The position numbers were made by a program, and so were the translations under genes. A stretch of 64,000 nt of DNA from Auricularia sp. M13 (lineage: Eukaryota > Basidiomycota > Agaricomycetes > Auriculariales > Auriculariaceae): assembly GCA_037042915.1 (NCBI GenBank), contig CM073200.1, forward strand, positions 62,001 to 126,000, written 5' to 3'. Positions 4,389 to 24,592 of this stretch are shown here, in pieces (within the stretch, counting starts at the first letter, position 1; the number at the start of each line of letters is the position of its first letter). The notes under the pieces were generated by a model. The model searched no databases. It was given only the letters and a program-made list of their open reading frames with translations, and was not told where the DNA came from.

Positions 4389-6302
4389 TCAATCTGCGTG
4401 TTGTTGCAAAACCTGCGCGATGTCGAGCAGGAGGCGGTCGGAGCCCCACTGGCCGACGAGGCTGACACCGACGGGCCAGCCGTCGCCTGCCAGGCCCGCG
4501 GGGATGTTCAAAGCGGGTAGGCCCGCGAGAGACGCAGGGACGGTCAACACGTCTTGAACATATGCATCGAGCGGCGGGGACGATGTCGCGTCCTTGAGGA
4601 GCGGCGCAGTACGAATCGCCGAGGGATGCAACAGCAGATCCACGCTGGGCGACGCGACCAAACCCTCGTCCTCCGCAGCCCGCCGGCAGTTCGGGAGAGC
4701 AAAGACGGCGTCGAAGTCGTCGATGATGCGCTGCCGCACGCGCGTGGCTTGCAGGAAGTAGTTGTCGAACGCCTCCGCCGTGAGGGCGTAGGTGCCCAGC
4801 AGGATGCGTTTGCGCACTTCTGCGCCGAAGCCGGCTGTGCGCGAAAGCGCATATATGTGCGATGCGCGCGTACGGTCGGTGTAGGTATCGGGCGGGACAT
4901 ATGTGCCTTTACGCGCGGAAGTGTGAGCGTGGCGAAATGAATGGAACGAAGGGGCCAAGTACCGTAGCGGACACTGTCGAACCGCGCGAGGTTGCTGCTT
5001 GCTTCGGCGCTTGCGATCACGTAGTATGCGCTCAGTGCGAAGGGTGTGGAGGGCAGCGAAACTGGGACAAGTGTCGCGCCTAGACGTTGCAATCGCGCTG
5101 CCATGTCGCGACAGCTCTGAACGATGGCCGAATTCAATTCAGTCGGGAAGTATTCCTGGGTAGATAGTTTGGTTTGCGTCGACATGTTCTCGAAATTGTC
5201 GAATTGAAGCTCACCTGCGGCACGCCTACGCGCACTCCCTGTAGAGAGTGGCCAAGTGGACGAGTGAACCGCTGGCCGAGTAAGCCTCGAACGCGCTGTC
5301 GCCGGTCATCTGAGGCTGATGTAGTATCTCGAGGGTCGTGCTGGGCGATGATATCTAACAATTTCGATCAGGGCATGACGGATGGCGAGTTGAACTTGAA
5401 AGCACCGAAGACCTCTCGTACATCTTGCGGAGATGTGGCCATGACTCCTACGCAGTCAAGGCTGTCGGCGTAGGCCACTACGCCATATCTACACAAATAT
5501 TAGCAATGTTGTTTCTGGGGTGAGCGCGGCAGGCTAACCTGCTGACAAGCCCGTAGGAAGGTTTGAGGCCATATATGCCACAGTATGACGCAGGTAAGCG
5601 AATCGAACCGCCCGTGTCTGTCGCCAATGCGCTGATCATGTTAACTTGCGAGACTCGTATAGGGATCGCAAGCATAACGCACGCGAAACACATCCGTGCG
5701 GCGACTGCAGCGGCGCTACCGCCACTGCTGCCGCCAGCAGAACGATGCTCCGAGTCTTGAGGTCCTTTGTGCGGGTTGACGACGACGCCATGTATACTAT
5801 GCGTGTTCAGCGACCTGTCATTCGTACAAGTCCCAGGTGAGTCCATGGCAAAGCAGACAGACCGCAGGCTTACCCCATGCCAAATTCGTCGAGATTGGTC
5901 TTTCCAACGATGGTGGCACCAGATGCTTTCAGGTACTTGACTACTGACGCGTCAAACGGGGATTTGAAGTTTTGCTGGAAACGGCGTCAATATCGCTGGG
6001 CGAACGGCAAGTACGCATACCAGCATTGCAGACGCGCAGGTGGTGTTCCATTCTGTTGTACATATGTTGTCCTTGACTGCGATCTCTCGACTGGAGCTAC
6101 TGGAAGGGCCTGTTCCATAGACGAGAGTGAATACATGGGCTACACGACGAGTGCTGGATGTACCTTCAGATTGGAACGCGACAAACGCGTTCCATTTTGC
6201 GTTACAGGCTCTCCTATTGCCGGAGAAGGAGCCAAGCCCATTTCCAGCCTGAGCCGCGGTGGAGAGGCATCGTCGCGCACGGTGCGAAGCTGAGGCGCGC
6301 AT
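4389..6302 (-). CDS. HER2: Mitochondrial glutamyl-tRNA(Gln) amidotransferase subunit A (GatA/Her2)
   Basis: Amidase-signature subunit of GatFAB/GatCAB, which converts Glu-tRNA(Gln) to Gln-tRNA(Gln) in mitochondria. Nine exons (low to high coordinate): 4389..4906, 4963..5155, 5215..5354, 5406..5488, 5539..5631, 5683..5814, 5874..5974, 6021..6109 and 6164..6302, giving 495 aa. The Lys-Ser-Ser triad is visible: Lys in EIAVKDN, Ser in [13 protein letters not shown], and the nucleophilic Ser in [23 protein letters not shown] and LLGTYAL are further family landmarks. The N-terminus [14 protein letters not shown] is Arg/Ser-rich with no acidic residue, as expected for a presequence. The start at 6302 is the only ATG that supplies it, but the first exon is the least certain part. 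It is divergent from GPATCH1. Confidence 0.92.
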
Positions 6303-18271: not shown

Positions 18272-21200
18272 ATGGCACCCACGTCGCCGTCGTCGGCGTC
18301 TTCGTTGCCGACACCACCGGCCGGCGATGAGGGCCTGCGGGAGCTGTACGAGAAGGTAGAGCATTGTGCTACGCAGTCGCAGTGATCCCGGCCACTCACA
18401 CGCCCGCCGGCGCGCATAGGTCTGGAGAGGCTTCGAAGATGAGTCGCCCATCAGCGCGGACACGCCTCTCAGCGACGGCACCTCGCCCGTCATCGGACGC
18501 GACGCTGGACGGGACCCAGAGCTGCCCGAGTACAACCGCCCAGAGCATCGGCCAGCGCACGATTACACAGACTCCAAGCCACCCATACTGGGCACGCACT
18601 TCTATCCGGCCGCGGCGTGCCATACTGACACCCTGCGCACAGAATTTCCCGTGCCTATGCCTGCGTCTGCTTACCCGTCCGGTAGCTCGACCAGGCCACT
18701 GCCTTCGCCTGGCCTCATGTCTCCTGGCGTGCGCAAGTCGCGCCCGCTACCAGCGCCGCCTGTTGCTGGCCCTCCGCCGCTGCCGGACGTTGTCGGCGGT
18801 CCATCGCAGCACCCGCGGCCGTCGTTTGGCATGACGGCGGCAGATATCAAGGGTCATGCCCCGTCCAGCTCGGTGTCGACCATCACTCCTGGTGGTTCTC
18901 TGAGCTCTCCCCCGCCGCCAGCATCGAGCAGGCCGCTGCCGAAGATTGACCTCGAGGGCCCACCGCCCCACGCGTTCGATAGCATGCCTAGACAGGGCTC
19001 GCGCAATGACTCGCTCCCAGCGCCAGGTTATGATGGTGGAGTGCGCGTGCTAGATAGGTCGCCGTCGCCGCTACCTGCAGCGCGCACTCCGAGCGGGGAA
19101 TCGTTTCGCGCCGCCTTGCCAGAGCCATACTACCACACATCACGACCAGACGATCAACAGCAGTCCCCGCAGCGACCCAGGGGAGCCCTTGCACCATCTA
19201 TTCCAGGCTATAGCTCTCCGCATAATGCATTGCCCACATACAAGTCATCCCCGACGTACGGTCAGGAGTATTCGGCTGCCCCTGCGGGCCCGTCCTACGC
19301 CGGACGAACTCCTGCCAACGGTTCGGCGCTTGCGTACAACGACGCCTTTGACTCCAATCCGTCGACACCGCGCGCGGGCCGCGTGGAGCTCGAGGACGAC
19401 ATGAGGCCATCGAGGACAGTCTCCTCGGCTTCGACTGCGCAGACATCCAATTCGGCGCGCTTCACGTCCTCTGATGAACACGGTCCCCCGTCTACTGCAC
19501 CAACGAGCGTAGATCGCAATAATTCAATGAGTTCCTATGATTCTTACACGAAGCCTCAGCACTACAACTCCTACGATCGCGACTCGTATACTCGCGACTC
19601 CTACGCGCGCGACTCTTACGCCCGGGATTCGTATGCAGAGGATCGCTACTCCGGAGATGAGGATGCCTACGATTCTTACACGGCTAGCCCGAACGATGAA
19701 TATCCCCATCACCAGCCGTCCATCGTGCTTTCTTCGCCTTCGGACTACTCCCATCATACTCCTGTGGCGGGGCCGAGCTCGCATCGCGTTAGCGACTTCG
19801 AGCGCATGAACGCTATCAAGCTTGAGTTGCATGACGAAGAGGTCGAAGAGCCTTACGATGACGAAGAGGACGATGAAGAGGACGACGCCGATCGCTTTGT
19901 GAACCTCGCCTTGCTCTCGCACATTGCTGTCAAGGTGCGCGACCAGGTCCCACGCGGCACCCACGTCAAAGGTGGCATACCATACCAAAGGGCATTTACC
20001 GGGCGAGACATTGTGGTGCGTGGTTATCTCCTGCAGACCTTTCGCTGCTCCTGTCGGCTAATGCATGTGATGCAGAACACCATCCAGCGCTTGGTGCAGC
20101 GCGACCTGATGCTCAACCTCGGCGTTCAAACGAATCAGGATCGGCAGATTGCATTACAAGTGGCGCGCAGTCTGCAGAGCCAGCTCTTTTTCTATGAAGT
20201 CGAATGGGGCGGCCGCGTACTTTCCGACAGCGTGGAGGACGTGTACATGTTCCTTGACGATGAGGTGGAGGGCATGTCGGAGGGCGCACCGCGAGAAGAG
20301 CTGCCGACTAGCGTCGTGACGGTGCTCACCAAATGCTATTCCGCCAGTTGTGTCGACGGAGAAGAATGTTTCTCCTACGCGTGTCCGCGTAAGCAGGGCG
20401 TGCGTATTCACATCCAATTAACTTGCATGACGCTTACCCCTCTGAAGGCACTCCTTGTCCGGCAGCAGTCAGCCATTTCGGTGGCAGAGAGCCCGCATGA
20501 GCAGGTTAGTCGCCCCTTCGATTCCATAGATGACGTCCTAATCTAATCTTACTTTCAGAAACGGGAATGGACCCAGTCCGTGGAGCCAGCGGTTTTGCAT
20601 TCACTGCCGGAGAGTGAGGTGAAGCGACAAGGGTGCGTCTCCACGTGCCGCTTTGACAGGCCATGACCTAACCGCTGGCGTAGAATCATTCATAAGATCG
20701 TTAGCAAGGAGGAGCAATATGTTCAGGACCTCGACACCGTGGAAAATGTGCGGTTTCCCCGTCCTCGCTCGTAACAGCTAGCTGATGGCCGCTCCTTAGC
20801 TCTTCATTCGGGGTTTACGGCGTACGATGCCACCAGTAATGCAACCCGATGCTCTGGAAGAGTTCATTGAGGAAGTCTTTGGAAACATCTTGGCGGTGCG
20901 CGAATGCAATCGTCGCCTGCTCGAGTCCATGGCCGTCCGGAAACGCGAGCAGGCGCCCATCATCCAAAGGATTGGCGACATTTTCCTCAATGCCGCGGCC
21001 GACTTTCGGCAGACGTATCCTATCTACGTCGGGCACCTGCCTGTTGCGGAGAAGCGCGTCAAGGACGAGGCTGAGAGCAACGCCGAGTTCCGCAGGTTCC
21101 TCGAGGTGAGTGGGCGCCTCATCGTTATCCATGCTGTCGTCTCGGCTGACTTTTCTCCTCCTTTCTCCCCTGAAAGCAATGCGCCCGTCATCCCGATTCG

Positions 21201-24200
21201 CGTCGCTTGGACTTGAAGCACTTCATCAGTCGGCCATCGGAGCACCTTTTGAAGTACCCTGTCCTCCTCGATGCCATCCTGCAGGAAACGGACAGGGAGA
21301 ACCCGGACGCCGAGTATCTCCAGGAGGCAATTCAAGCCATGCGTAACCTCTCGAGCGTGGCTCAGCTGCGCACATTCCAGTCTGCCATGGGTCGTGGGCC
21401 TACGGGAAAGCTGCAGTGGCACGATCTCGTTGCTCCTGAGGTGCGCGAAACCATCTCGAAGAAGGAGGCGAAGCGACAAGCGTGAGTTCCTGCTTTCTTG
21501 CGACCCTGACTGTGACTGAAATCTGTTCTAGCATCATCTTCGAGGTGATTCAAACCGAGATGGTTTATGTCAAGGATCTCGAGATGATAGTCTCCGTGCG
21601 TTTTTAGTTTCCCCTCCTGCGCACTAAAATTCTGGAGCCTCATGTTTTCTGCAGCTTTTCGTGCGGCCGCTGCGCGCTATGAATCCCCCCATTATTTCTC
21701 GGGATCGCATATCGCAGTTCATTCAAGATGTGTTTTACAACGTCAGCGAGCTGTACAAGCATCACCGGAAGATGCTCGACCGCCTGCATGAGATCCAGAA
21801 AGACGAGCACCCGCTCATCCGGAGCATCAGCGAGCCGATCTTCGACGCGGCGCTCAACTGGCGCGAGGCCTACATGGAGTACATTCCGCATTATCCAATT
21901 GCGGCGTACAAGATTGACGAGGAAATGGCGACAAATCCGTCGTTTAAGACCTTTGTCGAGGTTGGTGTCTAGTTTCAGTGTTTGTGAGCCTTTGACTGAT
22001 GGAGTGATCAGCAAAGTACTCGTCACCCGGATGCCCGTAGGCTGGACATGAAGGCATTCATCAATCGCCCCATCCCTCGCTTGCTACGCTACGAGCTGCT
22101 TCTCAAAGCTATCCTCGACGAAACTCCGCCTGGACACGAGGACCACGAGTCCATCCCGCAAATCCTTGAGATCATCAAGGATCTCGGCAAGGCAACTGAG
22201 CCTGGAGTCTCTACAGCTAAGCAAAAGGTTGAGCTCTGGCGCTACAACGCGAACCTCGTGTTCAAGCCCGGCGAGACGGTTGTAAGTACTTGCGTTATTT
22301 GGATACAACGAACCTCTCTAATTGTGATTGCAGGACATGGACCTCCTCGACGAAACGCGCACACTCATTCACACGGGCAAGCTGCTGCGGCAACCTGAAA
22401 CTGGCTTTGAGTGGAACGGCTGGAGCGAATTATTTGTTCTCCTCTTTGACAATTATTGTGCGTGTGCACGGCCATATTTATTCCGGGCTGACATGATTCT
22501 GCAGTGGTTATGACCAAACCGAAAGAGAAGGACGGTGTCACGAAGTACCATGTCAATCGTAGAGTCAGTCTCGTTTCTACTGTCTGTGCCGGAGAACTGA
22601 CACGTTGTTAGCCCATTCCACTGGACCTCCTGAGCCTGGTCAACTTTGTCGATCCTCCCCAACAACGTGGAACCGGTATCTTGAGAGGCTTACGGCACGG
22701 CACCTCGGAGACTGCGAACCAGAGCATGGCGGGCGATCGAAATGCGGAGAACGACTCGCGAGTCGTTTACCCATGTACCATCCACCACAACGGCCGGATG
22801 GGCGGCCTGTACACACTCTACGCTGAGAGTGCTGCGGCACGCGTAGAATGGCTACAGAAGCTGCAAGAAGCTACTGGTCTGCGAGCAGTCGTACAGGAGT
22901 CCAACAAGGCATGCTGACAGTCTGCCTCGCGGCTACATGCTGACCGACATGTGCACAGGTCTTCGAGATAGAGCCCTTGAGCGCCGATACGTTCCTCGTG
23001 CCGCACATGAGTAACAACCAGACGCAGTCCTGGAGCGAAGATAGCCAGTACACTGGAAGGGTCACTTGCTCTGTGCCATTCTGTAAGCGCTTCACCGCCA
23101 TGAAGACGCCTCCTCGCTCATAATTTATCTTTGCAGCCACTGCCGATGGAAGAGGACTTGTTGCCATTGGATGCGCGGAAGGCGTCTGGATAGGATTGCG
23201 ACACGACTCCCGGTGTAAGTGGACCTGCGCTAGCTTCCTTCCTGTTTCTAAACACCCTTTCGCAGCATTAAAGCGGGTTCTGCACCTCAAGCAAGTCACT
23301 CAATGTGCCATGCTGGAGGACTTCGGCATCTTCCTGGTCCTTGCAGACAAGGTCAGATTGACTGCGGTCTCTGAAGCATTATGAACTCACAAGGATGCAG
23401 TCGTTGTTCGCGTATCACATCGAGGCGCTGGTACCTTCCCAGCCGACAAGCCACATGCATACTGCACGGACTCCGCAGAAGCTGAACGGCAACAAGGATG
23501 TGCAATTCTTCAGCGTCGGGACCCTGAACGGCCGTACCCTCATCATCTACATGAAGAAGAAAGGAGTATGTTAACAAGTCGTCTTCTGCACCCGCTCTTC
23601 TCACATATAAGCAGTTGGACAGCGTGTTCCGTGTTCTGGAGCCGGTGACGGGCAAGATTGCGGAGAAACAGAAGAATCCTGGCGCATTCGGACGGTTTGG
23701 CTTTGGTCAGCACCGGTCGGAATGGTTCAGGATCTATCGCGTGCGTCGACATACGCAAGGTTTCCGTCATCCTAATTCCTCTCTACAGCAAGACTTCTTC
23801 CTACCTTCCGAGGCCTATGACCTGATATTCCTGAAGGCGAGGATTGCGATTTTGTGCCAGAAAGGCTTTGAGATCATGGACCTGAGCGAGTACGTTGGTT
23901 TGTCTTGACTTTTGCGCTAAGCTAACGGAACGTCGCTCAGCTTCAAGAGCGTGACTATCCCTCAGCGCGACGACCCACGTCTGCAGCCACTTGCTAAACG
24001 CTGTGAGGCGTGCCGCCCACTTGGAATGTTCAGGACAAGCGAGAACGAGTTTTTGCTCTGCTACAACGGTACTTGACATATCCCCTTTTTTGTGGACTCC
24101 ACTGACTTACGCATCCCAGAATTCGGCCTATACGTCGACCGGCATGGTGACCCTAGTCGGTCAACCGGTACGATTGAGTGGGAAGGTACTGCTGAGAAGG

Positions 24201-24592
24201 TGGCATGGCATCCGCCGTACATCCTGCTCTTCGACCCTCGCTTTATTGAGATTCGCCACATCGACACCGGTCGCCTCGTTCAGATCATACCTGGCAACGA
24301 GATTCGCTGTCTATGGGATGGCCGGGGTGGTGGCGCTCCTCCTGTGATGACTCCCGGTCCCGACGGATGGCAGGACGGTACGTCGCAGGAGTCAAGGGTC
24401 CACGCTGCGATGCGCGCAGAGCCGCTACCCGGACACCCCCGCGTCAAAGGCTCGTACCAACTGGTGTTTGAACTCGTGCCAACGATACCATTGTACTTGC
24501 CCGGATCCTTATCATCTCCGGGCGCGGATACCTACTTCCCTCCGGCAAGCCCGCCTCTGTCCCCCCGCATGTCGACCGCGTCCTGGGCCTAG
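18272..24592 (+). CDS. RhoGEF with DEP, two tandem DH domains, PH and CNH (Rom2-like)
   Basis: Guanine-nucleotide exchange factor, by family a Rho1 activator of cell-wall integrity signalling at the cell cortex. Twenty-two exons: 18272..18355, 18420..20015, 20076..20399, 20448..20504, 20559..20632, 20684..20747, 20800..21105, 21177..21481, 21532..21595, 21655..21960, 22012..22281, 22334..22457, 22505..22563, 22612..22908, 22959..23082, 23137..23214, 23266..23351, 23401..23565, 23615..23740, 23789..23889, 23941..24068 and 24120..24592, giving 1736 aa. Residues 1-520 are Pro/Ser-rich and disordered. DEP spans about 521-620, DH1 about 712-936, DH2 about 937-1150, PH about 1160-1310 and CNH about 1360-1650. 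DH1 CR1 is SKEEQYVQDL and DH2 CR1 is QTEMVYVKDL. Yeast Rom2 has one DH, so the second copy is unusual. The intron at 22909 has a GC donor. The intron 20400..20447 is in frame and could be retained. Confidence 0.9.
19572..19682 (+). repeat. Degenerate DSYxRDSY repeat in RhoGEF N-terminal region
   Basis: About five short coding repeats of the form R-D-S-Y-[AT] occur in the disordered N-terminal region of the RhoGEF. The Ser/Tyr periodicity suggests phosphorylation sites or a flexible binding segment; this is inference. Confidence 0.6.

Follow-up and report, generated by a model that had tools for sequence, protein, structure and literature searches.

The window analysed here, a stretch of 64,000 nucleotides from Auricularia sp. 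M13 (contig CM073200.1, positions 62,001 to 126,000 of the forward strand), carries a gene, in the following called gene A, for a predicted Rho1-type guanine nucleotide exchange factor (GEF) with two DH (RhoGEF) domains in tandem. The reading frame of its splice model is open throughout, and all introns are of the GT-AG type except for a GC-AG intron at 22909-22958. The border between exons 3 and 4 was placed at 20399/20448 to preserve the frame. The 22-exon model reproduces the length of 1736 amino acids (aa) that had been given for this gene in an earlier interpretation of the same DNA, the sequence-only reading. The features of the locus are as follows:

18272..24592, + strand: gene A, 22 coding exons, 1736 aa, predicted DEP-DH1-DH2-PH-CNH, Rho1-GEF type
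19947..20252, spanning the intron 20016-20075, + strand: DEP-like domain, aa 538-619 (Pfam DEP 19.3 bits, below the cut-off of 32.7)
20559..20632, + strand: exon 5, pre-DH1 segment KREWTQSVEPAVLHSLPESEVKRQ, compared with the other pre-DH segments by shuffle tests
20684..20747, + strand: exon 6, 64 nt, conserved region 1 (CR1) of DH1, from the splice model and the intron columns
20800..21105, + strand: exon 7, 306 nt, CR2 region of DH1, 49/100 residues identical to DH1 of gene B
21177..21481, + strand: exon 8, 305 nt, mosaic of DH1 CR3 and the start of the last helix, followed by a linker copy of the pre-DH segment
21532..21595, + strand: exon 9, 64 nt, CR1 of DH2, from the splice model
21655..21960, + strand: exon 10, 306 nt, CR2 region of DH2, from the splice model
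22012..22281, + strand: exon 11, 270 nt, CR3 and last-helix region of DH2 up to the PH lead-in, with a phase-0 end in the same column as in the single-DH gene D
22334..22908, + strand: exons 12-14, PH_5 domain (Pfam PH_5 67.6 bits, aa 1161-1297)
22959..24592, + strand: exons 15-22, CNH domain (Pfam CNH 213 bits, aa 1359-1644) and C-terminal tail

In the Pfam search of gene A, two RhoGEF domains, PH_5 and CNH exceeded the cut-offs. The PH_5 domain follows directly on DH2. There is none directly after DH1, as had been stated before: from the last aligned DH1/DH2 residue of exon 8 it is about 35 residues to the KRQ of DH2. Judged from its predicted domains, gene A appears to have the layout of a Rom2/Rgf1-type Rho1-GEF to which one DH has been added, with a DEP score below the cut-off.

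Both copies are DH domains by sequence. Scored alone against the Pfam RhoGEF model, DH1 reached 129.7 and DH2 131.4 bits (cut-off 27.6), and in the comparison with solved structures 58 distinct sequences were matched by DH1 and 68 by DH2 (E up to 0.01), with intersectin as the best match of both. The possibility that DH1 is not a DH, which the sequence-only reading had left to a profile search, was rejected by the Pfam score and the PDB matches. DH1 and DH2 are identical at 70/197 aligned residues (36 percent), corresponding to a z of 24.6 against 200 shuffles. The exon parallels described earlier were recovered in the spliced model: the length is 64 nt for both exon 6 and exon 9 and 306 nt for both exon 7 and exon 10, exons 8 and 11 each open with a phase-0 Gln codon (QCARHPDSRRLD and QSTRHPDARRLD), and the motifs of CR1 (EEQYVQDL and EMVYVKDL) and CR3 (FISRPSEHLLKYP and FINRPIPRLLRYE) of DH1 and DH2 read as had been given. 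Each copy has three introns at the same places (alignment columns 9, 30 and 132) and in the same phases (exons 6 and 9 from 2 to 0, exons 7 and 10 from 0 to 0). The proposal of two DH domains in one RhoGEF through an internal duplication of several exons is thus supported, although the duplicated unit extends beyond the exons named at the time, since it includes the pre-DH segment that now forms the linker, and the duplication is neither recent nor unique to gene A.

The genome was searched for further RhoGEF domains, resulting in 31 matches, which were taken exon by exon and are lower bounds, and which were grouped by eye into 20 places; seven of these were spliced in whole or in part. Two sets of DH exons were found at 2 of the 20 places, namely gene A and gene B (C8:2962212-2963725, minus strand), which lies 2.9 Mb from gene A on the same contig. 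A search of the genome with DH2 gave 15 matches and no third tandem place. The model of gene B (1235 aa, 5′ end unresolved) contains a DEP-like domain (21.8 bits, below the cut-off), two RhoGEF stretches, PH_5 and CNH. Its DH1 exons measure 64/300/293 nt and its DH2 exons 64/576 nt; as 576 equals 306 + 270, the intron between the latter two DH2 exons is absent in gene B. Like gene A, gene B has a GC-AG intron, at a different position (L009, after modelled exon 14).

Two genes with one DH served for comparison. Gene D has a DEP (59.5 bits), a DH piece (112.6 bits) and a CNH (88.7 bits) by Pfam, and a PH recognised by eye. Gene C (C10), which we take to be Tus1/Rgf3-like by its layout, differs from gene A in having a single DH in the stretch read. 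Its CNH piece scored 23.1 bits, slightly below the Pfam cut-off of 26, and its frame appears to be broken in CR3 in this assembly (L013 ~4640-4660, minus strand; G000:C10 ~2.192 Mb), possibly due to an assembly slip or a decayed gene. DH2 of gene A is closer to the DH of gene C (84/226 residues) than to that of gene D (71/218).

The extent of the duplicated unit can be read from exon 8. Its residues 1-63 align to exon 11 and its residues 78-101 to exon 5, with 14 residues in between; the last 24 residues, KLQWHDLVAPEVRETISKKEAKRQ, align with all 24 residues of exon 5 preceding DH1. Exon 8 is, by this alignment, a mosaic of an exon-11-like and an exon-5-like part that marks the duplication junction. 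Together with the resemblance of the linker to the pre-DH segment, this makes the pre-DH segment plus the DH the predicted duplicated unit. In the shuffle tests, the score of the exon 5 segment against the gene A linker, both gene B segments and the segment of gene D was matched by 0/1000 shuffles, and that against gene C by 5/1000. The gene A linker scored above all 1000 shuffles with pre-DH1 of gene A and the pre-DH segments of C and D, and 6/1000 shuffles were as good with pre-DH1 of gene B. The latter is the least similar segment (1/1000 against the gene B linker, 36/1000 against C). The alignment score of the gene A linker is higher with the pre-DH segment of gene C (59) than with gene A's own pre-DH1 segment (46). 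For the final 27 residues of exon 11, which complete the last DH helix region and lead into the PH, no counterpart was found in DH1, the last-helix end of which is, on this alignment, replaced or lost.

Because one open frame in exon 8 holds both CR3 of DH1 and the lead-in of DH2, a single transcript is implied. This bears on the explanation that the tandem is an artefact in which two adjacent genes or an assembly duplication were joined as one. The gene A model is a splice prediction from DNA, which leaves room for such an error, but besides the shared frame of exon 8 the DH copies are only 36 percent identical and gene B repeats the layout elsewhere, so that an artefact is hardly credible.

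The age of the tandem was addressed with a tree of eight DH domains. In this tree, the DH1s of A and B join (99/99), as do the DH2s (88/87, not starred). Approximately unbiased (AU) tests reject the pairing of the two DHs within gene A (p 4.7e-7) and within gene B (p 1.1e-5), and the tandem therefore predates the separation of A and B. A recent or gene-A-specific duplication is rejected by these tests together with the tandem in gene B. For the deeper branches, DH2 groups with gene C in the best tree (81/82, not starred), with long outgroup branches flagged, and the alternatives reached p values of 0.17 (DH1 and DH2 together), 0.17 (DH1 with C) and 0.086 (DH1 with D). Taken alone, the tree is compatible with DH1 as the sister of DH2 and also with separate origins of the two.

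The intron positions were compared by alignment column, for which the intron peptides were entered by hand and the introns of gene C, one with a GC donor, were set by eye. The phase-0 intron in column 30 is common to all six aligned DHs. Phase-0 introns are also present in column 132 (A1, B1, A2 and D) and column 224 (A2, B2 and D). The phase-2 intron in column 9 is found in A1, B1, A2 and B2 without a match in C or D; gene C has one 5 nt further in phase 1. Being confined to the DHs of A and B, the column-9 intron favours a single origin of the tandem in the A/B lineage.

The exon phases also limit how the two DH sets could be spliced. Skipping exons 6-8 of gene A (675 nt, phase 2-2) preserves the frame and rebuilds the single-DH layout with its pre-DH segment, and skipping exons 8-10 gives an in-frame DH1/DH2 chimera. 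If exons 9-11 are left out, translation leaves the frame and ends at a stop near residue 980, and likewise in gene B the frame is preserved without the DH1 exons (657 nt) and broken without the DH2 exons (640 nt). Fully exclusive exon use is therefore unlikely, and strictly exclusive use of the two exon sets was rejected as a candidate on these grounds. Omission of DH1 or a chimera may occur as far as the frame is concerned. It is thus conceivable that DH1 is a cassette, included or skipped to give isoforms with one or two DHs, and the symmetrical exons 6-8 and their equivalents in gene B would fit. As the phase symmetry is a consequence of the duplication itself and hence not independent evidence, a cassette is considered rather improbable.

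The conservation of DH1 was compared with that of the other domains. Between the A and B proteins, 60/84 residues are identical in DEP, 134/220 in DH2, 192/378 in CNH, 88/193 in DH1 and 64/149 in PH. DH1 is retained; by these counts its conservation lies below that of DH2 and close to that of PH. The DEP-like domains, which despite their agreement score below the cut-off in A and B in comparison with 59.5 bits in D, look like a conserved, diverged DEP subtype. The proportions of nonsynonymous and synonymous differences (pN and pS) between A and B are 0.35 and 0.69 for DH1, where pN is about half of pS, and 0.25 and 0.71 for DH2, where it is about a third; this is a raw comparison and not a formal selection test, with pS near saturation and the synonymous substitution rate (dS) saturated. 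The lower conservation of DH1 is clearest in CR3, where the DH1s agree at 16/45 residues and the DH2s at 27/47 (p 0.04 in one uncorrected test on two genes), and within DH1 no significant difference in conservation was found between the CR2 exon and CR3 (p 0.15).

The last-helix part of DH1 has changed as well. DH1 of gene A shares 3/29 residues with C, 3/29 with D and 13/26 with DH1 of gene B, and for DH2 17/47 residues are shared with C and 15/47 with D. Counted against C and D, DH1 carries the larger number of unique changes: in A it has 46 and DH2 has 28 (p 0.047), in B it has 48 and DH2 has 23 (p 0.004). These counts are biased towards DH1 if DH2 is the sister of C as in the best tree. 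Between the paralogues, DH1 of B has more unique changes than DH1 of A (37 to 21, p 0.048) and no such imbalance is seen for the DH2s (24 to 20, p 0.65), which suggests that DH1 of A may still be fully functional and that DH1 of B has drifted.

The catalytic roles of the CR1 Glu, CR3 and last-helix residues are known from work on Tiam1 and Dbs; the CR3 basic and last-helix Asn positions compared here presumably correspond to K1195 and N1232 of Tiam1. The CR1 Glu is present in 6/6 aligned DHs of A, B, C and D. The CR3 residue before the Tyr is K in A_DH1, Q in B_DH1, R in A_DH2, K in B_DH2 and R in C and D. The last-helix Asn position holds Q in A_DH1, L in B_DH1, E in A_DH2, Q in B_DH2, Q in C and N in D, in an alignment of six rows whose last-helix part is uncertain. 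A literature search on the Tiam1 residue numbers gave no papers. The catalytic residues thus fail to separate DH1 from DH2 cleanly, which makes the argument of the sequence-only reading for a regulatory DH1, its off-consensus CR3, a weak one: CR3 of DH2 is off-consensus too (RPIPRLLRYE), and DH1 of A keeps a KYP that is absent from DH2. A regulatory role would be better argued from the altered and shortened last-helix part of DH1 and the lower conservation of CR3 between the paralogous DH1s.

The same residues bear on the possibility that DH1 is a second working exchange domain, acting on the same GTPase or on Cdc42, Rac or a Rho paralogue, which would make the protein a two-headed GEF comparable to Trio or Kalirin, though with a single PH. 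DH1 of gene A keeps the CR1 Glu, FISRP and KYP, its Pfam score equals that of DH2, its pN is below pS, and its terminal branch (0.14 and 0.17) does not exceed that of A_DH2 (0.22 and 0.25) in length. Set against this are the altered and shortened last-helix part, the absence of an associated PH, an EH at the place in CR3 often taken by QR, and the CR3 residues LLHLP and QYP in DH1 of B. A second active head is regarded as possible but doubtful.

Given these observations, we put at about an even chance the interpretation that DH2 is the exchanger and DH1 a DH that regulates it in cis, both derived from an old duplication of the pre-DH segment and DH before the split of A and B. According to the sequences and trees, this unit would have been duplicated inside a DEP-DH-PH-CNH Rho1-GEF to give DEP-DH1-DH2-PH-CNH, and the tandem gene would later have been duplicated into A and B. 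DH2, with a full last-helix region running into the PH, would be the exchange domain for a Rho1-type GTPase, as expected from the family. DH1 appears to have remained a DH by sequence, with amino-acid change well below silent change, while its GTPase-facing CR3 drifted and its last-helix end was replaced or lost. It may pack on or near DH2 in the same chain and so restrict the access of the GTPase, and contacts of DEP, PH or CNH may release this block, comparable to the N-terminal regions of other DH proteins.

For intersectin, Vav1 and Asef, inhibition of the DH by N-terminal regions is described in the available part of one article, in which the CR1 Glu is called crucial, CR3 and the last helix are given as contacts of switch 2, and the DHs in an intersectin crystal touch each other through surfaces that include these two elements, with the CR1 Glu buried (PMC2892021). 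Rgf1-3 are autoinhibited by their N- and C-terminal domains according to the accessible text of a review (PMC9697909).

Several points weigh against a regulatory DH1. These are the limits given above for pN and pS, the CR3 contrast and the unique changes, as well as the non-significant difference between the CR2 exon and CR3 within DH1. DH2 is itself non-canonical, the last-helix Asn being found only in gene D among the six DHs. DH1 of A may be active, as it keeps the CR1 Glu and the Lys in the KYP of CR3. ARHGEF3, one of the solved-structure matches and an active GEF, has a similarly odd CR3 (DIPRSRLVKYP). Furthermore, in the part of the article available, the intersectin authors consider it unlikely that inhibition works through the crystal dimer, since the protein is a monomer in solution (PMC2892021).

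A further explanation is that DH1 binds a GTPase without exchange and tethers or senses Rho1 in a positive feedback, comparable to the CNH of Aspergillus Rom2, for which extra Rho1 contacts are reported in the excerpted review (PMC9697909). The identical CR1 of both DH1s (EEQYV) speaks for this, the weaker conservation of the switch 2 contact CR3 in DH1 compared with DH2 against it, and this role is judged unlikely.

If the cis-regulatory interpretation is extended to its full consequence, A and B would represent a distinct fungal GEF class with the order DEP-DH-DH-PH-CNH. Within one chain, a pseudo-DH would pack on the catalytic DH and close the GTPase site by an intramolecular form of the DH-DH contact, giving a stress-gated switch of cell-wall growth that was long kept in two paralogues; this is put forward tentatively. 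Rho1-GEFs help to decide the place and timing of fungal cell-wall building. If true, a catalytic domain would have turned into a regulator of its own twin, which would show how such GEFs are kept off.

Elsewhere in the genome, RhoGEF-like pairs with near-equal scores were observed (C1:643595 and C1:5055851; C3:591591 and C3:2319114; C1:5646377 and C2:2568080), which suggests recent duplication or an expanded RhoGEF-like family. A search for relatives in prokaryote and virus contig collections gave 73 + 67 pattern matches with 0 confirmed, which has no bearing on fungi. Among the open-access literature matches listed, in the portions of text available, no description of a tandem DH without intervening PH in a fungal GEF was found, which is weak evidence of absence; many of the matches were off-topic and concerned dehydratase domains. 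From its predicted domains, the tandem DH gene is a variation on the known Rho1-GEF layout, and the A/B paralogy, the duplicated unit and its junction are newly described here.

Two DHs per protein, as in gene A, are found in Trio, Kalirin and UNC-73, where each DH has its own PH. In contrast, gene A has a single PH after DH2 and thus DH-DH-PH with a copy of the pre-DH segment as linker, instead of two DH-PH pairs. In the accessible text on intersectin, the DH-PH of which is the best sequence match of DH1 and DH2 among solved structures, the DH is likewise inhibited by an N-terminal neighbour, but there is a single DH and SH3 domains are the inhibitors. Rom1/Rom2 of yeast and Aspergillus and Rgf1/Rgf2 of fission yeast have the order DEP-DH-PH-CNH with a single DH according to the available parts of two publications (PMC9697909, PMC8488606). 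Their domain order resembles that predicted for gene A, which includes the PH_5 and CNH families, with one DH there and two here. Since the genome also contains the DEP-bearing single-DH gene D, A and B look like extra relatives of these proteins and not like a plain Rom2 orthologue.

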